Shown piece after piece: positions 1 to 8,831 of a stretch of DNA of 9,645 bases. The notes below the pieces were generated by a model. That model had not been told where the DNA came from. It saw only the letters and a list, made by a program, of their open reading frames with translations, and made no database searches. Origin of the DNA: Candidatus Aerophobota bacterium. Its GTDB lineage: Bacteria > Aerophobota > Aerophobia > Aerophobales > B3-G15. Within the stretch, counting starts at the first letter, position 1, and each line of letters begins with the position of its first letter. Position numbers and translations under genes: made by a program. The DNA lies in the NCBI GenBank assembly GCA_014859225.1, contig JACUUP010000050.1, positions 1 through 9,645 on the forward strand, in the 5' to 3' direction.

Positions 1-482
1 AGTTTCATATGTTAGGGTTTATTGATAGGCTTGATACTCGTATGTATGCAGCTCAAGCTGCAGGTTGTTCTCCCATTGCTAATGCCATAAAAGAGGAAAC
101 TGATATTGTAAAGCCGGTAAAACCTAAAACTATTGCTAAGTCTTTAGCCATAGGCAATCCTGCTGATGGATACTATGCGGTTAAAACTGTCAGGGAAAGC
201 GCAGGTTGGGCGGAAGTTGCCAGTGATGAGGAAATCGTGGAGGCAATTAAACTCCTGGCTCAGACCGAAGGTGTGTTTACCGAACCTGCGGGTGGCGTAA
301 CGGTGGCAGTAGCTAAAAAACTAATAGAAAGAGGAAAGATTACCCGGGATGAATCTCTGGTTATCTGTATTACCGGTAATGGATTAAAAACTCAGGAGGC
401 GGTTAGTAGCTATCTGGGCAAAAGAATAAAAATAAAGCCCACTTTAAAGTCCTTTGAGGAGTCTTTAGACAGGTTAATTTAA
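1..482 (+). CDS. thrC: Threonine synthase, C-terminal part (5' end outside window)
   Basis: This is the last ~159 codons of a PLP enzyme that converts O-phosphohomoserine to threonine and phosphate in the cytoplasm. The reading frame is open from base 3, so the ATG at 9 is internal and the true start lies left of the window. Recognisable threonine synthase features are the stretch around RMYAAQAAGCSPI, the AIGNPADGYYAV segment, a TEPAGG motif and the phosphate-binding-region motif ITGNGLKT near the C-terminus. The catalytic lysine and the N-terminal half are not in view. A 92-base gap separates it from the sulfur carrier gene, so it may be the first visible gene of the same operon or the end of a preceding one. 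Its side-by-side placement with sulfur-transfer genes fits the aspartate-family branch, where phosphohomoserine feeds threonine and homoserine derivatives feed homocysteine. Family assignment is firm; the link to sulfur chemistry is inference. Confidence 0.93.
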   Translation, partial: FHMLGFIDRLDTRMYAAQAAGCSPIANAIKEETDIVKPVKPKTIAKSLAIGNPADGYYAVKTVRESAGWAEVASDEEIVEAIKLLAQTEGVFTEPAGGVTVAVAKKLIERGKITRDESLVICITGNGLKTQEAVSSYLGKRIKIKPTLKSFEESLDRLI

Positions 483-510
483 GTTCATAAACTTACAGTG
501 TGGCAGGTAT

Positions 511-538
511 TTAACCTATCATTTATTTTTGTTAAAAT
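511..538 (+). promoter_or_regulatory. Possible promoter before the sulfur carrier gene
   Basis: TTAACC at 511-516 (two mismatches to the -35 consensus) is followed after 16 bases by TAAAAT at 533-538 (one mismatch to the -10 consensus). It sits 36 bases before the ATG at 575. A short AGGT/ACCT inverted repeat (504-516) overlaps the -35. The surrounding DNA is AT-rich, so chance matches are likely; the call is tentative. Confidence 0.3.
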
Positions 539-574
539 ATCTGATTAAACTACTTAACAAGAAAGGAGTAAAAA

Positions 575-853
575 ATGACTGTAAAAGTAAGAATACCAAC
601 ACCATTGCAAAAACTCACAGAAGATAAAGCAGAAATTGAAGTGGAAGCCTGCAGCGTTGCCGAGCTTGTGGAGATACTGGATGAGAAATTCAAAGGTTTA
701 AAGGAGCGTATATGCGAGGATAACGGAAAGATTCGCCGTTTCATAAACATCTATGTTAACAATGAAGACATAAGATTTCTTGAGAATGAGAGGACGAAGC
801 TTGAAGATAAAGATGAAGTCTCTATTATTCCTGCTATTGCGGGAGGGAGGTGA
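575..853 (+). CDS. Ubiquitin-like sulfur carrier protein, MoaD/ThiS (CysO-like) family
   Basis: This 92-residue protein has the beta-grasp pattern of MoaD/ThiS/CysO carriers: an N-terminal strand VKVRIPTPLQKLT, a middle RRFINIYVNNEDIRFL segment, and a C-terminal EVSIIPAIAGG tail. In this family the terminal Gly-Gly is adenylated by an E1-like enzyme and converted to a thiocarboxylate that donates sulfur. Here the E1-like gene follows directly, with the two genes sharing the A of TGATG. The sequence is closer to CysO-type carriers (IPTPL, NIYVN, IIPAIAGG) than to molybdopterin-synthase MoaD, and no moaE or moa genes are present. The protein ends in Gly-Gly-Arg rather than Gly-Gly, so the C-terminus would probably need trimming before activation. 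The start is set by an AAAGGAG Shine-Dalgarno at 562-568. The sulfur acceptor (cysteine, homocysteine, thiazole or other) cannot be read from the sequence. Confidence 0.92.
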   Translation: MTVKVRIPTPLQKLTEDKAEIEVEACSVAELVEILDEKFKGLKERICEDNGKIRRFINIYVNNEDIRFLENERTKLEDKDEVSIIPAIAGGR

Positions 854-1659
854 TGTTTAAATTTTCAGAGGAGCAAATTGAGAGGTATTCCCGACAGATT
901 ATTCTTCCCCAGGTTGGAGGGAGAGGGCAAAGAAAGATAAGACAGGCATCTGTGTTGATAGTAGGGGCAGGGGGATTGGGCTCGCCCTGCGCTTTTTATC
1001 TTGGTGCCGCTGGTGTTGGAAAAATAGGACTGGTGGATAGCGACGAGGTAGAGTTGAGCAACCTTTCCAGACAGATTCTTCATTTCAGCCCGGATGTAGG
1101 TAGAGAAAAAGTTTATTCAGCAAAGGAAAAATTGAATAAACTCAATCCGGATGTGGAAGTTGTAGCGTATAGTGAGAAGGTATCCTCGGAAAATATAATG
1201 TCCCTTATAAACGACTACGACATTGTGGTGGATGGAAGCGATAATTTTCCTACGCGCTATCTGGTTAACGATGCCTGTGTTATGACTAACAAACCATTAT
1301 CCCATGGAGCCATACTTCAGTTTAATGGACAGATTTTTACTATTCTTCCAGGCAAAGGTCCCTGTTACAGATGTCTTTTTGCCGAGCCTCCACCTCCGGG
1401 GGAGATTCCTAACTGTCAACAGGCAGGAGTTATAGGAGCAGTTGCCGGGGTGGTGGGGGCTATCCAGGCTAACGAGGTGCTGAAAATTATACTGAATCAG
1501 GGCAAACTTCTGGTTGGACATCTTCTGATAATTGACCTTTTAGGGATGGAATTTCGCAAAGTAAAAATTTCTAAGAATAAAGACTGTGCAATGTGTGGGG
1601 ATAGTCCCTCAATAAAAAATTTAATTGATTATGAGCAGTTTTGTGGCATAAGGAGGTAA
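853..1659 (+). CDS. moeB: E1-like adenylyltransferase/sulfurtransferase, ThiF/MoeB/HesA family
   Basis: This 268-residue cytoplasmic enzyme is expected to adenylate the C-terminal glycine of the carrier encoded just upstream and to help load sulfur on it. From the ATG at 853 the visible landmarks are the RYSRQI start signature (11-16), the nucleotide-binding GAGGLGS loop (38-44), the VDSDEVELSNLSRQ segment (61-74), Zn-binding pairs C171/C174 and C245/C248, and C188 in PNCQQAGV at the place of the catalytic cysteine. Length fits MoeB/ThiF without a C-terminal rhodanese domain, so sulfur must come from another protein such as the desulfurase at 3781. A GTG at 850 could also serve as start, but ATG 853 overlaps the upstream TGA and lies behind GGGAGGGAGG, which suggests translational coupling. 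MoeB is used as the nearest familiar name; ThiF-like or HcyF-like function is equally possible. Confidence 0.92.
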   Translation: MFKFSEEQIERYSRQIILPQVGGRGQRKIRQASVLIVGAGGLGSPCAFYLGAAGVGKIGLVDSDEVELSNLSRQILHFSPDVGREKVYSAKEKLNKLNPDVEVVAYSEKVSSENIMSLINDYDIVVDGSDNFPTRYLVNDACVMTNKPLSHGAILQFNGQIFTILPGKGPCYRCLFAEPPPPGEIPNCQQAGVIGAVAGVVGAIQANEVLKIILNQGKLLVGHLLIIDLLGMEFRKVKISKNKDCAMCGDSPSIKNLIDYEQFCGIRR

Positions 1660-1662
1660 ACA

Positions 1663-1902
1663 ATGCCTAAGCTACCTGTGAGATTAACTTTTCCTCAGCA
1701 TTTAATCAAAGAGCCGGTGATTTTCCGCATGGCTAAGGAATGCAAAGTTATACCTAATATCCGCAGGGCTAAAGTTACAGAAACTGTGGGGGAGGTGGTA
1801 CTGGAACTTGAAGGTGAAAAAAATAATTTAGAGAAAGCTAAAAAATATCTTGTTGAGTTAGGAGTAGAGGTGGAACGGGTAGAAGGGGATGTGGTTACGT
1901 GA
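1663..1902 (+). CDS. Stand-alone NIL-domain protein
   Basis: A 79-residue protein made up almost entirely of a NIL domain, the small ferredoxin-like fold known as the C-terminal ligand-binding domain of MetN methionine transporters. Visible pattern: RLTFPQHLIKEPVIFRMAKE, VIPNIRRAKVTETVGEVVLELEG, then a helix and a final GVEVERVEG strand. There is no ABC ATPase, membrane segment or ferredoxin cysteine cluster. NIL domains occur with homocysteine-forming proteins in anaerobes (COG1900/NIL-ferredoxin systems of methanogens), so a role in sulfur amino-acid sensing or synthesis fits this locus, but that is inference. It starts three bases after the previous stop; the AGGAGG Shine-Dalgarno at 1651-1656 is formed by the last two arginine codons of the upstream gene, pointing to coupled translation. 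Confidence 0.85.
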   Translation: MPKLPVRLTFPQHLIKEPVIFRMAKECKVIPNIRRAKVTETVGEVVLELEGEKNNLEKAKKYLVELGVEVERVEGDVVT

Positions 1903-1977
1903 GCTGGCCAATATAAACAAGGTAGTATCAAACAAATTGTGAAAAATTCTCGTTAAAATGAAGAAAAGGAGATTTCC

Positions 1978-2793
1978 ATGCAGGAAAATATGGAAAAATT
2001 TGCTTTTGCCGGAGAAAAGGATATTACAAGAGCTATTGCTTCAGGTTTTTTGAAACAGTTTACCGAATTTGCGGAAAGCGATGTTGTAGTTATAGGAGCA
2101 GGACCAAGTGGACTGATGGCAGCAAAAGAGCTTGCCGGTAAAAAATTTAAAACTCTCGTTGTGGAAAGGAACAACTATCTTGGTGGTGGATTCTGGATAG
2201 GAGGGTATCTTATGAACAAGGTTACGGTGAGGGCTCCAGCAGACACAGTTCTTAAAGAGCTTGGGGTTCCTTATGAAGAAGTACAATCAGGTCTTTTTGT
2301 AGCTGATGGTCCGCATGCCTGTTCTAAACTTATTGCTGCCGCCTGTGATGCGGGAGTAAAAATTTTTAATATGACCGTGTTTGAGGATGTAGTTCTGCGG
2401 GATGAAGGAAAAGTTGCAGGAGCGGTGATTAACTGGACACCGGTCTCTTCCTTGCCAAGAGAGATAAGCTGTGTTGACCCTGTGGGCATTGAGTGTCATG
2501 TGGTAATAGATGCTACCGGACATGATGCCTGTTGCGTCAAAAAATTAGAAGAGCGCGGACTAATAAAGTGCGGTAGATACGGGGCGATGTGGGTGGAAAA
2601 ATCAGAGGACCTTGTGGTGGAGCACACAGGTATGGTAAAACCAGGTCTTATAGTTTGTGGAATGGCTGTATCCACTACATTTGGTCTTCCCAGAATGGGT
2701 CCAACTTTTGGAGCAATGCTTCTTTCGGGGAAAAAAGCAGCAAAGGAGGCGGAAAAGTTCCTAACCGGAAAAAACTTAGGATATGCAATATAA
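1978..2793 (+). CDS. thi4: Thi4-type adenosine-diphosphate thiazole synthase
   Basis: This 271-residue FAD/NAD-type Rossmann enzyme belongs to the Thi4 family, which builds the thiazole half of thiamin from NAD, glycine and a sulfur atom. Landmarks are the dinucleotide loop GAGPSG (40-45), ER (63-64) ending the second strand, the glycine-rich [11 protein letters not shown] (66-76), TGHDA (180-184) and the C-terminal RMGPTFGAM segment (239-247). At the position of the sulfur-donating cysteine of yeast and plant Thi4 (SCMDPN in plants), this protein has SCVDPV with Cys165, whereas methanogen sulfide-using enzymes have His there. It could therefore be a single-turnover enzyme or a cysteine-bearing sulfide user; the sequence alone does not decide. 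Start: ATG 1978 behind AAAAGGAG at 1963-1970. It is separated from the NIL gene by 75 bases and followed 32 bases later by cysK. No thiG, thiH or thiS-type thiazole genes are seen. Confidence 0.9.
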
Positions 2794-2825
2794 CATATAA
2801 AGCGACAAAAATAAGGGGGGATATT

Positions 2826-3800
2826 GTGATTAAGAAGATAAGGGAAAAATTTTTTGATGATATTACAAAGACTATCGGCAATACGCCTCTGGTGCGTTTG
2901 AACAGGATAACCGAAAGAGTGCACGCGCAGGTTTTTGCGAAACTGGAATCGTTTAATCCCCTGTCCAGCGTAAAGGACCGTATCGGAGTTTCCATGATTG
3001 AGGATGCAGAGGAAAGAGGTGTCCTGCGCAGGGACTCGGTACTGGTGGAGTCAACAAGTGGCAACACAGGTATTGCCCTGGCGTTTGTCTCTGCAGCAAA
3101 AGGATACCGGCTTATTCTTACCATGCCTGAAACTATGAGTATGGAGCGTCGTCAGCTACTTGCCGTATTCGGCGCAGAACTTGTGCTTACTCCGGGGAGC
3201 GAAGGAATGCAGGGGGCGATACTAAAGGCTGAAGAGCTGGTTAAGGAAATTCCCAATGCGGTGATGCTCCAGCAATTTAGTAATCCAGCAAATCCCGAAA
3301 TTCACCGCAGAACCACAGCAAAGGAAATATGGACGGATACAGACGGCAAGGTGGATATTGTGGTTGCGGGTGTTGGTACAGGTGGCACGATTACCGGTGT
3401 AGCAGAAGTGATTAAGAAAAAGAAAAAAGATTTTTGTGCAATAGCGGTTGAACCTGAATCATCGCCGGTTTTATCCGGTGGCAAAGCAGGACCACACAAA
3501 ATACAGGGCATTGGTGCAGGTTTTGTGCCAGATGTATTGAACGTAAAAATTATTGATGAAATTATCACAGTCAAAGATGAAGATGCCGGTGCAACTGCAC
3601 GCAGGCTGGCAAAGGAAGAAGGAATTCTTGCAGGGATTTCAAGCGGAGCCGCGTGTTGGGCGGCGTTGGAAGTTGCAAGACGGAAGGAAAATAAGGAGAA
3701 ACTTATCGTGGTGGTACTTCCGGATACTGGAGAAAGATACCTGACCACATGGCTTTTTAAGGAACAAGGAGGGAAAGAAAATGATATATATGGACTATAA
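2826..3800 (+). CDS. cysK: Cysteine synthase (O-acetylserine sulfhydrylase)
   Basis: A 324-residue fold-type II PLP enzyme that forms cysteine from an activated serine and sulfide (or a thiocarboxylated carrier). Landmarks: GNTPLVRL (18-25), PLP lysine K50 in SSVKDR, substrate loop TSGNTG (77-82), PLP-phosphate loop GTGGT (184-188), QGIGAGFVP (227-235), ISSGA (271-275) and PDTGERYL (299-306). These match CysK better than the CysM/O-phosphoserine type. The open frame extends back to 2589, but that part overlaps thi4 and has no family similarity. I chose GTG at 2826 because it follows an AGGGGGG ribosome site at about 2812-2818 and gives the normal N-terminus. The 3' end overlaps the desulfurase gene by 20 bases. 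With an adjacent MoaD/ThiF pair, a CysO-like route to cysteine is conceivable; free sulfide is the default expectation. Confidence 0.95.
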
Positions 3801-5019
3801 CGCTACCACACCCTGCGATAAAAGGGTGGTAGAAGAGATGCTTCCGTACTTGAGTGATGAATACGGCAACCCTTCGTCTCTTTATAAAAAAGCACGTACA
3901 GCAAGAAAAGCAGTGGATGAAGCACGGGAGAGGTTGGCAAAACTTTTGGGATGCCAGGCAAATGAGGTGTTTTTTACATCAGGTGGAACGGAGGCAGATA
4001 ACTGGGCTATACAAGGTACTGCGTGTGCTTTAAAAGATAAGGGCAGACATATTATTACATCACTGATTGAACACCATGCGGTTTTATGTGCCTGCAAGGC
4101 ACTTGAAAAAAAGGGATATAAGGTTACATACCTGCCTGTTGATAGCTATGGCATGGTTGATGTCGGGGAGTTAAAAAAATCTATAAGACAGGATACCATT
4201 CTTGTAACTATAATGTATGCCAACAATGAAATAGGCACAATCCAGCCTATTTCTGAAATAGCAGAAATAACAAAAAGTAGGGGAGTGTACTTTCATACCG
4301 ATGCAGTGCAGGTAGCAGGTAAAATACCTCTGACAGTAAACTCTCCTGGTATAGATATGCTTTCGCTATCAGGGCATAAATTTTATGCTCCCAAGGGGAT
4401 AGGTGCGCTTTACATAAGAAAGGGGGTCAAGATTTCACCGCTGTTGTATGGTGGTGAACAGGAAAGAGGTGGGCGAGCAGGGACTGAAAATGTGGCGGGA
4501 ATTGTCGGTATAGGAAAAGCAGCCGAGCTCGCACAAGAGGAAATGAGAGAGGAATCGGTGAGAGTAGGGCTGCTGCGTGATAGACTTGAAGAAGAAATAA
4601 AGAAGAGAATACCGCAGATAGTTGTAAACGGACACCCCGAACAGCGACTATACAACACCCTTAATTTGTGTATAAAATATATAGAGGGAGAAAGTATCCT
4701 GCTGAACCTTGATTTTGAGGATATTTGTGTTTCTTCTGGTTCTGCCTGCGCATCTGGTTCACTTGAACCAAGTCATGTGCTGCTTGCCATAGGGCTACCT
4801 GATGAAACTGCACGCGGGTCATTGCGGTTCAGTCTGGGTAAATATAATACAGAAGAGGATGTTACTCGGGTGGTTACTGTTCTTGCGGGCGTTGTTGAAA
4901 GACTATGGCGGATATCCCCTTTCTGGGAAAAGGACAAGGAGCAGGTAAATGGACTATACAGAAAAAGTTTGCGAATACTCCAGAAATCCCAAAAATATGG
5001 GAAGAATTATTCATGCTGA
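3781..5019 (+). CDS. nifS: Cysteine desulfurase, NifS/IscS class I
   Basis: A 412-residue PLP enzyme that removes sulfur from cysteine as an enzyme-bound persulfide for Fe-S cluster assembly or other sulfur carriers. Visible features: start [24 protein letters not shown] (65-77), IEHHAV (96-101) with the PLP-stacking His, ANNEIG (147-152), PLP lysine K200 in LSGHKF, and the mobile catalytic loop [16 protein letters not shown] with C323. The class I loop and length indicate NifS/IscS rather than SufS. ATG 3781 lies behind AAGGAGGG (3766-3773) within the end of cysK. After [11 protein letters not shown] (residues 378-388) the last ~24 residues lose family similarity. The final 71 bases overlap the start of the scaffold gene in another frame, so the tail is effectively an out-of-frame reading of nifU, perhaps after a small frameshift. 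Its usual partner, NifU/IscU, is truncated here. Confidence 0.95.
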
Positions 5020-5175: not shown

Positions 5176-5270
5176 TTGCCTTGAGCGGAAAATTATGTAA
5201 GATTATATCTAATAAAGTGCCTATACGGCTAAAAATTGAGAGACACAACATAGCATTCCAGCATCCAAAG

Positions 5271-5498
5271 ATGAAAATAAAGCCAAAGAGATATATTATC
5301 TGGTCCACAAACAAAGAGATTGACCTGGATAACTCTTATCAGAAGAAGTGGTACATTGCAGAGGTCTTGTCTAATGGTAGAGCAGAAGATATTGGTCAAC
5401 TGGACTGGGAAGAAATAAGGAAATTGCTTCCTGAGATTAATTTGCCGGAGAGAATCCGACGATTATGGGAGGACTATTTTGAGTATTCTGGAAAGTAA
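5271..5498 (+). CDS. Small putative antitoxin partner of the nucleotidyltransferase
   Basis: A 75-residue protein with the pattern MKIKPKRYIIWST, then QKKWYIAEVLSNGRAEDI, then LPERIRRLWEDYF. I recognise this arrangement (IWST, a KKWY...VL..GRAEDI core and a LWEDYF-like end) from small proteins usually encoded directly before AbiEii-like nucleotidyltransferases; it resembles the family I know as DUF6922, from memory. The downstream gene overlaps it by 20 bases, as in toxin-antitoxin pairs, so antitoxin is the likely role. The open frame extends upstream to a TTG at 5181, but the extra 30 residues are lysine-rich and unlike the family, and neither start has a strong ribosome site. I prefer ATG 5271 because conserved sequence begins there. 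A weak promoter-like pair, TTGAGC (5181-5186) and TATATC (5204-5209) with a 17-base spacer, could serve it. No helix-turn-helix is obvious, so autoregulation cannot be claimed. Confidence 0.72.
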   Translation: MKIKPKRYIIWSTNKEIDLDNSYQKKWYIAEVLSNGRAEDIGQLDWEEIRKLLPEINLPERIRRLWEDYFEYSGK

Positions 5499-6165
5499 AG
5501 GCACTCTCGCACCAATTCAGAGAAATCTGTTGATGGAATTTGGAAAGATTAGTGAAGCATCTTTTTTCTATTTAACAGGTGGAACTGCTCTTGCCGAGTT
5601 TTACATAGGGCACCGTCGCTCTTACGACCTGGACCTTTTTACAACCGAGAAAGGGTTGATTCTCTCTTTTACCAGAGTTGTAGAGGAAATGCTCCATAAA
5701 GGGCAATATTTTCTTAAAGTTATTCGCAGATTTGAGTCTTTCGTGGAGTACGAGGTTAGCAAAGAAGAAGAAAGTGCAGTGCTTCATTTTGCCTATGATT
5801 CACCCTTTCGATTTGAAGAGCCACAACCTTCAAAATTTGGAGTTAAGATAAATGACTATAAGGACCTTATTGTGGATAAACTTTTGACCTTTTTCGGACG
5901 ATGGAAACATCGAGATGCCATTGATCTGTATTTTATTTTAAGAACTGAACCAATAGAAACTTTGATAGAGATGGCGAAACAAAAAGACCCTGGTTTTGAC
6001 CTTTACTGGTTGTGCGCTGCTCTCAGGGAAGTATCTGATTTTCCGGATGAGATCGGTAAATGGCCAGTGGATATGCTTGTTGAAGTAAATGTAAAAGAAT
6101 TGAAAAATAAATTCTTGCACCTTACTTATCAAATTATGGATAAAATAAAGACAGGTGAAAGATAA
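5479..6165 (+). CDS. AbiEii/AbiGii-type nucleotidyltransferase, putative toxin
   Basis: A 228-residue protein of the polymerase-beta-like nucleotidyltransferase superfamily in its AbiEii/AbiGii branch. The signature is FYLTGGTALAEFY (30-42) with G34-G35-T36, followed by RRSYDLDLFT (46-55), where D50 and D52 are the expected metal-binding pair. Further along are YKDLIVDKLLTF (127-138) and KHRDAIDLYFIL (143-154), also typical of this branch. No membrane segment or signal peptide is visible. In related type IV-like systems such proteins transfer nucleotides to cellular RNA targets and the upstream gene neutralises them; this specific target is unknown. Translation probably starts at TTG 5479, six bases after GGGAGG (5467-5472), overlapping the partner gene by 20 bases. 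The pair sits exactly between the broken nifU and a csoR remnant, consistent with acquisition by transfer. Family is well supported; toxicity is inferred. Confidence 0.85.
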   Translation: MSILESKGTLAPIQRNLLMEFGKISEASFFYLTGGTALAEFYIGHRRSYDLDLFTTEKGLILSFTRVVEEMLHKGQYFLKVIRRFESFVEYEVSKEEESAVLHFAYDSPFRFEEPQPSKFGVKINDYKDLIVDKLLTFFGRWKHRDAIDLYFILRTEPIETLIEMAKQKDPGFDLYWLCAALREVSDFPDEIGKWPVDMLVEVNVKELKNKFLHLTYQIMDKIKTGER

Positions 6166-6196: not shown

Positions 6197-6334
6197 TTAC
6201 ATTTTATAATCAACAAACCTGTTAAATATCTTCATGAGCTCTTCTATCTTTTTGTTCTTATCCTCCTCATCAGGGGAAATCATAGTCTCCGCCACACAGG
6301 TTTCAATGTGATTCTTTAACAGTTGTAAAATTAC
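6197..6334 (-). pseudogene. csoR: CsoR-family copper repressor, C-terminal remnant
   Basis: On the - strand, about 45 codons ending at a TAA (complement of 6197-6199) encode LLKNHIETCVAETM followed by an acidic, lysine-rich helix and EELMKIFNRFVDY. This matches the last half of CsoR/RcnR (DUF156) repressors, including the His-x3-Cys pair of the Cu(I) site in NHIETC. The N-terminal half, with the first Cu-ligand cysteine and DNA-contacting helix, is missing. Beyond about 6334 the frame enters the copA promoter and then reads as antisense of copA. An ATG at 6385 (- strand) would add 17 unrelated residues but has no ribosome site. It is therefore most likely a decayed gene. It lies convergent to the toxin gene and directly abuts a CsoR-type operator, so an intact regulator may once have stood here. 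Confidence 0.75.
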
Positions 6335-6343
6335 AGTTATAAT
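6316..6343 (+). promoter_or_regulatory. Promoter of the copA-YHS unit
   Basis: TTAACA (6316-6321, one mismatch to TTGACA) and a perfect TATAAT (6338-6343) are separated by 16 bases. The predicted transcription start, about 6350, falls at the edge of the CsoR-type operator. The -35 lies inside the csoR remnant. Confidence 0.75.
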
Positions 6344-6351
6344 ATATACAG

Positions 6352-6368
6352 ATACCCCGTAAGGGTAT
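6352..6368 (+). promoter_or_regulatory. CsoR-type copper operator
   Basis: ATACCCCGTAAGGGTAT is an inverted repeat with 6-bp arms ATACCC/GGGTAT and a 5-base centre. G/C-tract dyads flanked by TA in this layout are the known operator form of CsoR repressors in front of copper genes (for example copZA of Bacillus). It lies 8 bases downstream of the -10, where bound apo-repressor would block transcription until Cu(I) releases it. The CopY box (TACAnnTGTA) is not present. Confidence 0.8.
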
Positions 6369-6410
6369 ATACTGAAATGAATCATGCGTAAAATTTCAGG
6401 GGAGATGAGT

Positions 6411-8831
6411 ATGGTTAAAAAAGTCGTGTTGCCAATAAAAGGAATGGCATGCGTGGGGTGTGCAATAAAAATAGAAAAATCTCTGGGCAAGGTGGCTCAA
6501 GTTAAAGAAGCTCGTGTGAATTTTGCAACAGAGAAAGCAACCATCGTTGTAGAGGAGTCGGTATCTCTTTTCTCCCTGTTGAAAGCGGTGCGCAATAGTG
6601 GATATGATGTTTCTGCCAGTCAGGTTGAGTTACACATTACTGACATGCGAAACACGAGCTGTGCAAACACCATAGAAAAAGCGCTCAGAAAAACCGAAGG
6701 TGTGCTTGAGGCTAAGGTGAATTTTGGCGCCGAAAAAGTCTCCGTCGTTTACATTCCCACTGTGGTGGACCCGGAAGAGTTGGTGAGGGTAGTTGATAGC
6801 ACCGGATACACTGCTAAGCTTCCGCAGATAAGGCCCGAAGCTATTGAGGATGAAGATATTCTAAAGATGAGGGAAGCCTGGAACAGGTTCAAATACTCCC
6901 TGGTCCCAGGTTCTATAATAATGGTTTTGATGGTAATTCACTACATGACGTCAATAAAGATTTCACTCTACGTGCCCATTACCCTTATTTTAGGGTTCCC
7001 GGTAGTTTTCATCTGGGGATGGCCAACTCAACGCTCCGCTCTTAAATCTTACAGAAATTTGAGTCCAAATATGGATGCTTTAATTTTCCTTGGCTCTATA
7101 CCACCCTATTTTATGGGCGTTCTTGGAATCTGGTTCCCCTACATAACCTTCGTTGAGATGGGAGTCTGGATTATGATATTTCACCTGCTTGGAATATACC
7201 TTACGGTGAAAGCTAAGGGGAGAGCATCTCAGGCTATCAAAAAGCTCTTGAAGTTGGGAGTAAAGAATGCAAGAATCCTGAGAGACGGTAACGAGGTGGA
7301 AGTGCCAATTTCTGAGGTCAAAGTGGGAAACATAATGATTGTCCGCCCTGGAGAAAAGATCCCCACTGATGGCAAGGTCTTTGAGGGTGAAAGTACGGTA
7401 GATGAATCAATGGCTACGGGGGAATCCATGCCGGTACGGAAAAGGAAGGGCGATGAGGCTATTGGAGCTACGGTAAACCAGCAGGGCCTCTTGAAGGTGA
7501 AGGCAACCAGAGTAGGAAAGGATACCTTCTTGTCTCACGTAATTAAGATGGTTCAGGAGTGTCAGGGAAGCAAGATACCAATTCAAGAATGGGCTAATAG
7601 GATAACCGGGTATTTAGTCCCCACAGTCATCGGGTACTCTTTGCTCATATTTGCGCTCTGGATGTTTTTTCCTGGATTCTTCGTCGGTTTTATTGGGCGC
7701 TTTGAGTTTCTGCCCTGGGTCAATGCAAGCCTTCCTATCTGGATATTGGCGTTCCTGGCGATGGTCGCAGTACTTGTGATTTCCTGCCCTTGTGCTTTAG
7801 GATTGGCCACTCCAACTGCACTGATGGTCGGAAGTGGTCTTGGCAGCGAGAAAGGTGCTTTAATTAGAAGGGGCGAAGCTATACAAACAATGAAAGAGGT
7901 CAAGGCTATTATACTCGACAAAACTGGGACTTTGACCAAAGGTAAGCCTGAAGTCACTGATGTTATATCTTTTGGTGTAGGTGAGGATAAGAAAGTCCTG
8001 TACTATGCTGCCAGCGTGGAGAAGGGCTCGGAACATCCACTCGGACAAGCAATAGTGAACCGTGCCAGAGAACTTCAACTCAGGCTGGATGAGCCAAAAT
8101 CATTCCAAGCTATAACTGGAATGGGGGTGAAGGGTATTATAAATGGTGCTGAGGTTCGCGTTGGTAAACCCGAATTGGTTGACGGCGCTAAACAGGAGCC
8201 AAAGCTACAGGAAAAACTGAATGAATTGCAGGAGCAGGCAAAAACTGCCATGGTCGTCACCGTGGATAAAAAAGTCGTGGGAGTAATCGCCGTCGCGGAC
8301 ACACTAAAGGAGGGTACCGTCGAGGTTGTGCGAGAACTCGAGCAGATGGGACTGAAAACCATCATGCTCACTGGTGATAATCAAAAGACTGCCGAAGCAA
8401 TAGCAAAGGAAGTCGGCATAAGCAAGGTATACGCAGAAGTCATGCCTGACCAAAAAGTGGAGGCGGTGCAACGGGCACAGCAAGAATACGGAATGGTTGC
8501 CATGGTTGGTGATGGCATTAACGATGCTCCAGCCATAACCGCATCAAATGTTGGTATTGCCATAGGGACAGGCACCGACATCGCAATTGAAGCCGGTGAC
8601 ATCATACTCGTGAGGGGTGATATCTCGGGAGTTGTCGCTGCGATTAAACTGTCAAAAGCTACTTTCAGGAAAATCAAGCAAGGCTATTTCTGGGCCTGGT
8701 TTTATAACGCCAGCGCTGTGCCCATTGCTGGCTTAGGACTTCTGCATCCGATGATAGGTGCTCTGGCAATGGCAATGAGCTCCTTCACCGTGACAATGAA
8801 CGCGCTGCGGTTGAGGAAAGCAAAAATCTAA
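6411..8831 (+). CDS. copA: Cu+-exporting P1B-type ATPase
   Basis: An 806-residue inner-membrane copper pump. Order of parts: HMA domain 1 with GMACVGC (C14, C17), a second HMA-like domain (residues about 71-138), membrane helices, the actuator motif TGES (336-339), the transmembrane CPC copper motif (459-461), phosphorylation site DKTGT (D503), the HP pair (542-543), TGDN (654-657), hinge GDGINDAP (700-707) and C-terminal helices with YN (765-766) and MSS (789-791). CPC with YN and MxxSS identifies the Cu+ (P1B-1) subtype. The second HMA domain reads DMRNTSC: its first metal-binding cysteine is replaced by Asn81, leaving C84 alone. The open frame begins at ATG 6384, but ATG 6411 lies 6 bases after AGGGGAG (6398-6404) and gives the usual N-terminus. 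The CsoR-type operator upstream implies induction by copper. Confidence 0.96.

Follow-up and report, generated by a model that had tools for sequence, protein, structure and literature searches.

Gene content and organization of the window

The DNA under study (hereafter, the window) is a stretch of 9,645 nucleotides from Candidatus Aerophobota bacterium, representing the whole of contig 143 of an assembly of 1.8 Mb, divided into 273 contigs and 91% complete (genome G000). According to its open reading frames (ORFs) and to profile searches, the window harbors seven tightly packed genes, all on the plus strand, coding for a pyridoxal phosphate (PLP) enzyme related to the threonine synthase ThrC, a sulfur carrier, an E1 enzyme, a NIL-domain protein, the thiazole synthase Thi4, a CysK, and a NifS-type cysteine desulfurase (Table 1). 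An earlier note, made from the sequence alone, had described an uninterrupted same-strand run of these seven genes; this was borne out, all of them being confirmed at positions 3–5019. The intergenic distances, from the ThrC-like gene to nifS, are 92, −1, 3, 75, 32, and −20 base pairs. The ATG of the E1 gene at position 853 overlaps the stop codon of the carrier gene, and a GTG at position 850 represents an alternative start. The ThrC-like enzyme is the most unusual member of the cluster and the likeliest acceptor for the carrier.

Table 1. Features of the window, with the evidence for each assignment
Feature	Position	Strand	Evidence and remarks
ThrC-like PLP enzyme, 3' part	3..482	+	PF00291; last 159 codons only, 5' end beyond the contig start
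CysO/SAMP1-like sulfur carrier, 92 residues	575..853	+	PF02597; C-terminus IAGG-R
Uba4/MoeB-type E1, no rhodanese domain	853..1659	+	PF00899 8e-85; structure matches to Uba4 (6yub) and ThiF/MoeB
Stand-alone NIL-domain protein, 79 residues, no ferredoxin domain	1663..1902	+	PF09383 2.5e-17; aligns with NIL proteins of carrier clusters
Cys-type Thi4 thiazole synthase	1978..2793	+	PF01946, TIGR00292; Cys165 in ISCVDP
CysK, O-acetylserine sulfhydrylase A (OASS-A) type, GTG start	2826..3800	+	TIGR01139 480 bits (cut-off 351); 2q3b 6.7e-128
NifS/IscS-type cysteine desulfurase	3781..5019	+	TIGR03402 588 bits (cut-off 531)
Truncated IscU/NifU_N scaffold, 56 residues	4949..5119	+	PF01592 E 7e-13, profile positions 2-55 of 127
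ORF of no assigned family	5181-5498		Between the truncated IscU and the nucleotidyltransferase
AbiEii-type nucleotidyltransferase	5479-6165		Downstream of the IscU fragment
Heavy-metal P-type ATPase, two HMA domains, CopA-like	6384-8831		

A divergent, carrier-linked ThrC-like subfamily

The fragment encoded in the window reaches 250.7 bits against the ThrC-like profile, of which it covers 156 positions. In the tree, the carrier-linked ThrC genes group together in a clade of their own (support 100/100), apart from canonical ThrC, and the fragment is placed among them; the earlier reading of this gene as an ordinary threonine synthase was not supported. The genome also has a canonical ThrC, on contig C23 beside a ThiC fragment; it groups with the canonical enzymes and retains all the canonical motifs.

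The comparison of 25 linked and 12 canonical ThrC sequences revealed 32 positions that differ between the two groups, each group being at least 90% uniform. Ten of these positions are covered by the window fragment, which is of the ThrC-like type at nine. The changes, from canonical to ThrC-like, include STGNTSAS to STGNLANS, SVNPxR to NIRPYY, PVGNAGN to PxAGGSL, and EPASA to ETAGG; the canonical motifs around PLP and substrate were absent from the 25 linked relatives and present in the canonical paralogues. Moreover, the carrier-linked ThrC was read in 18 genomes, each of which has a second ThrC, and in genome G139 the two stand side by side in a single operon (L090), which comprises the ThrC-like gene, carrier, NIL, canonical ThrC, a proposed homoserine kinase, and an aspartokinase. 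The AlphaFold model of the ThrC-like enzyme (predicted local distance difference test, pLDDT, 85) has threonine synthases as its best structural matches, with Z up to 41.6; the model thus points to a ThrC-like fold and leaves the substrate unsettled. Judging from its clade and diagnostic residues, the "ThrC" of the window is a member of a divergent carrier-linked subfamily and probably not an ordinary threonine synthase. No link between ThrC and a carrier was found in the open-access literature.

The carrier, its E1, and the JAMM peptidase

The best matches of the carrier in the PDB are 4n6e_B, a ThiS/MoaD protein (3.7e-16), and 3dwg_C, the CysO of Mycobacterium tuberculosis (3.3e-15); both carrier and E1 also resemble SAMP1/UbaA. 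The carrier ends with GG followed by one Arg, while in its relatives the GG is followed by AR, SE, SC, or NK, or runs into a NIL domain. The residues beyond GG would imply cleavage after GG, which is the job of JAMM peptidases. A JAMM gene is present in the genome, outside the window, at G000:C72:45-383 (L049 3-398; Prok-JAB 85 bits), and it is the only one over the cut-off among the 17 genomes of the order.

Natural fusions join carrier and E1 (L108, L120, and L152) or carrier and NIL, the latter with an internal GG and a length of 171–188 residues (L169, L180, L078, and others). On the basis of the adjacent genes and of these fusions, the E1 is predicted to activate the carrier. The genome harbors three components of a CysO-type system, namely a CysO-related beta-grasp carrier with a C-terminal GG (followed by one Arg), an adjacent E1, and a JAMM; the thiocarboxylate sulfur route suggested in the earlier note gains good, if inferential, support from the CysO-like carrier, the fusions, and the genomic JAMM. 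No CysM-type acceptor is present in the window, where the CysK is of the OASS-A type; no search for CysM was made in the remainder of the genome.

Thi4, CysK, and the second sulfur locus

Cys165 of the window Thi4 (in ISCVDP) aligns with the Cys of the Arabidopsis SCMDP motif and is kept in 17 out of 18 close relatives; a second Thi4 of the same genome, on contig C72, is of the His type (LHVDP). In yeast and plants, Thi4 proteins of the Cys type act as suicide enzymes (PMC8454699). Haloferax likewise requires this Cys, and the deletion of UbaA, its sole ThiF homologue, leaves growth without thiamine unaffected (PMC4215014). According to these data, the window Thi4 is probably of the suicide type. 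The window CysK, for its part, exceeds the cysK equivalog cut-off and matches a cysteine synthase A structure (2q3b), and by these scores it is closest to the sulfide-using CysK/OASS-A enzymes rather than to CysM. Since Thi4 is of the Cys type and its Haloferax counterpart is independent of UbaA, and since CysK is of the OASS-A type, both seem unlikely acceptors. Of the two transfers proposed earlier, the one from carrier to Thi4 thus found no support, and the one from carrier to CysK is disfavoured.

The locus on C72 (L049, G000:C72:1-12000) embeds, besides the JAMM and the His-type Thi4, a second CysK and three proteins named from sequence (Rrf2-like regulator, NIL-ferredoxin, and MnmA-like).

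Two further families accompany Cys-type Thi4 genes. DUF6775 is a near-constant companion, lying near 73 out of 80 of them (for example L034:836-1660, L108:7520-8323, L183:10810-11442, and most of L107-L186); among 145 genomes, it is present in 13 out of the 18 with this Thi4 subfamily and in one of the remaining 127 (p 1e-13). An AlphaFold model of the protein (pLDDT 93) matches the archaemetzincin 2x7m (E 1.5e-4), with the HExxH motif missing. It was not found in the window's genome, and no literature on it was found. LarE, which is likewise known to give up a cysteine of its own to donate sulfur, is found repeatedly in the same kind of loci (L112:3458-4297, with 355 bits for TIGR00268, L113, L124, L130, L150, L161, L162, and L182).

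Conservation of the neighbourhood

The conservation of the cluster was checked in 80 named loci harboring a relative of the window Thi4, counting same-strand neighbours up to 6 kb away. Eleven of the 80 loci combine ThrC, carrier or E1, and Thi4, mostly from Omnitrophota and Endomicrobia, but also from Syntrophaceae and one Dehalococcoides assembly; the order ThrC-carrier-E1-NIL-Thi4 recurs in four (L127, L136, L160, and L183). The neighbourhood is thus conserved, a check that the earlier note had called for, and the arrangement exceeds chance. Carrier or E1 lies near Thi4 in 18 loci and neither does in the other 62. Sulfur genes are found near Thi4 in 36 loci and thiamin genes (ThiC, ThiE, and ThiL) in 22, so that the Cys-type Thi4 of bacteria belongs to one of two contexts, thiamin operons or sulfur-assimilation clusters, and never to both (0/80); the exclusion has p 8e-8 if the loci are taken as independent, and they are related.

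In four sister genomes of the same order (G007, G012, G013, and G014), the arrangement is instead CysK-HcyBio-NIL-ferredoxin-(E1)-Thi4-DUF6775. Across the sister genomes, the carrier and the JAMM are either missing or weak, and the ThrC-like/carrier part might therefore have been acquired. In distant genomes, 20 carrier loci showed no Thi4 over a range of about 7 kb; hence, there are carrier modules that lack a Thi4. In L183 (4468-6807), a 780-residue sulfite/nitrite-reductase-like protein with a C-terminal YedF/TusA-like domain adjoins the ThrC-like and carrier genes.

Phylogenetic distribution and the homocysteine gap

The distribution of the ThrC-like gene was analyzed in 145 genomes, which are not phylogenetically independent, counting carriers at 50 bits or more and PF01053 at E 1e-50. 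The ThrC-like profile separates cleanly, with 23 genomes scoring at least 530 bits, the window fragment in addition, and a next best score of 388 bits. The carrier is present in all of these 24 genomes and in 12 of the 121 others (p 8e-19). PF01053 and HcyBio are both missing from 13 out of 24 genomes with the ThrC-like gene versus 25 out of 121 without (p 0.0016); in the genomes with a MetH-type methyltransferase, the figures are 11 out of 19 versus 14 out of 90 (p 3e-4). The window's genome, which encodes MetH, is one of these 11: no match to PF01053 (MetY/MetB type) better than E 4e-7 was retrieved from it, and HcyBio (PF01837), present in 13 out of 17 genomes of the order, was not found, which argues against the HcyBio route in this organism. 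Price 2018 (PMC5764234) acknowledges that one or more routes to homocysteine are still missing. Overall, the profile seems to point to homocysteine as the product.

A possible route to homocysteine and its alternatives

Building on the observed gene content, conservation, fusions, clade and residue differences, and co-occurrence, we infer a scheme in all of its chemical steps, the homocysteine product included. NifS or another persulfide source would supply sulfur, and the JAMM encoded on C72 would trim the residue after the carrier GG. The E1 would adenylate and then thiocarboxylate the trimmed CysO-type carrier, and the ThrC-like PLP enzyme would transfer the sulfur of the carrier to a phosphoester of the aspartate family (O-phosphohomoserine being the most likely one), yielding homocysteine; NIL would probably aid carrier docking or substrate binding. 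In a second unit, Thi4 would make the thiamin thiazole using the sulfur of its own Cys165, and CysK would make cysteine from sulfide. The two units would share a neighbourhood because the pool of cysteine and sulfide is common to both, and not because the carrier loads Thi4. This whole explanation, a thiocarboxylate amino-acid module with a ThrC-like acceptor leading to homocysteine plus a separate Thi4/CysK unit, has in our estimation an even chance of being right. The narrower claim that a ThrC-derived PLP enzyme makes homocysteine by combining a CysO-type thiocarboxylate with O-phosphohomoserine, or with another activated homoserine akin to it, is advanced tentatively, at somewhat under an even chance.

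Several points weigh against this scheme. The relatedness of the genomes represents the main caveat on the homocysteine product suggested by the profile; 11 out of 24 genomes with the ThrC-like gene have PF01053 or HcyBio enzymes, and L134 has the ThrC-like gene and no carrier in the stretch examined. The absences in the window's genome are provisional, since it is 91% complete. Furthermore, the ThrC-like gene of the window is truncated, with its N-terminal PLP and phosphate-site motifs outside the contig. In the alignment to Thermus ThrC, some of the changed motifs fall on Ser155, Arg160, and Asn188, which we take to be phosphate contacts; likely phosphate-binding positions may thus have been replaced, which would argue against O-phosphohomoserine as the substrate.

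The main rival is that the module makes cysteine from the carrier thiocarboxylate and O-phosphoserine, as in CysO/CysM/Mec+, by means of the ThrC-like enzyme or of a CysM that has escaped notice. The carrier is indeed closest to CysO, many carrier clusters contain CysM-like enzymes and a JAMM, and cysteate synthase is a ThrC-derived enzyme that uses O-phosphoserine. However, a CysK is already present in the window and a second one on C72, the ThrC-like clade tends to occur where homocysteine synthases are missing, and L090 ties the ThrC-like gene to aspartate-family genes; we regard a cysteine product as possible, though rather unlikely. Less probable still is plain co-localisation, with a real threonine synthase next to a carrier devoted to tRNA thiolation, molybdopterin, or protein tagging. 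Although the NCBI models name full-length ThrC-like relatives threonine synthase, carrier and E1 resemble SAMP1/UbaA, and the JAMM of a relative resembles desampylase, the genome has a second ThrC with all the canonical motifs, the ThrC-like gene co-occurs with the carrier in each of its 24 genomes, and there are sister genomes in which ThrC is kept and the carrier is weak or missing.

The carrier might also feed sulfur to Thi4, or rebuild Cys165 from dehydroalanine and so make a suicide Thi4 catalytic. The repeated adjacency of Thi4 to carrier or E1 and the mutual exclusion of its sulfur and thiamin-operon contexts would fit this; yet the active-site Cys is conserved, the Haloferax mutant lacking the E1 UbaA grows without thiamine (PMC4215014), and most Cys-type Thi4 loci (62/80) have neither carrier nor E1 nearby, so that we consider it very improbable.

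If the homocysteine route holds, it would provide homocysteine and methionine to several anaerobes that have MetH and no known homocysteine synthase, and would add to the known acceptors of protein thiocarboxylates a second one of fold type II. It would also correct a widespread "threonine synthase" annotation, for a route spread across many uncultured anaerobes.

The downstream region

The truncated IscU, which the earlier note had not mentioned, overlaps the 3' end of nifS, and its frame ends before the conserved FKTFGCGAAI region; judging from the genes that follow (Table 1), a toxin-antitoxin pair may have disrupted a former NifS-IscU operon. A minus-strand ORF (6200-6490) looks CsoR-like by eye, yet it has no Pfam match. 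Neither Rfam matches (RNA regulators) nor tRNA genes were found in the window.

Comparison with known systems

The cluster shares with the CysO/CysM/Mec+/MoeZ system of Mycobacterium the CysO-type carrier, a MoeB/Uba4-type E1, a JAMM in the genome, and a fold-type-II PLP enzyme in the cluster; it differs in that a ThrC relative replaces CysM, the E1 lacks a rhodanese domain, a NIL protein is present, and the CysK is not CysM-like. The HcyS/HcyF/MetY homocysteine route of Wolinella (compare the sulfur-metabolism operons 4e of Iyer 2006, PMC1779556) has in common with it the carrier, an E1 without rhodanese, the JAMM, the proposed homocysteine product, and, as far as relatives of the cluster are concerned, neighbouring genes for CysH, ATP sulfurylase, sulfite reductase, and TusA; in the window's genome, however, no PF01053 enzyme of the MetY type was found and the ThrC-like enzyme stands in its place.

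The DUF39 (HcyBio)/NIL-ferredoxin route (Price 2018, PMC5764234) shares the NIL domain, and sister genomes carry its genes in the CysK-HcyBio-NIL-ferredoxin-(E1)-Thi4 arrangement; the window's genome differs in that no HcyBio was found, and the NIL protein of the window lacks the ferredoxin part that the one on C72 has. HvThi4 of Haloferax volcanii (PMC4215014) has the sacrificial Cys at the same active-site position, Cys165 in both, whereas the window Thi4 is bacterial and lies within a sulfur-amino-acid cluster. The cluster of the window is a variant of the protein-thiocarboxylate amino-acid pathways that Iyer 2006 (PMC1779556) brought together.

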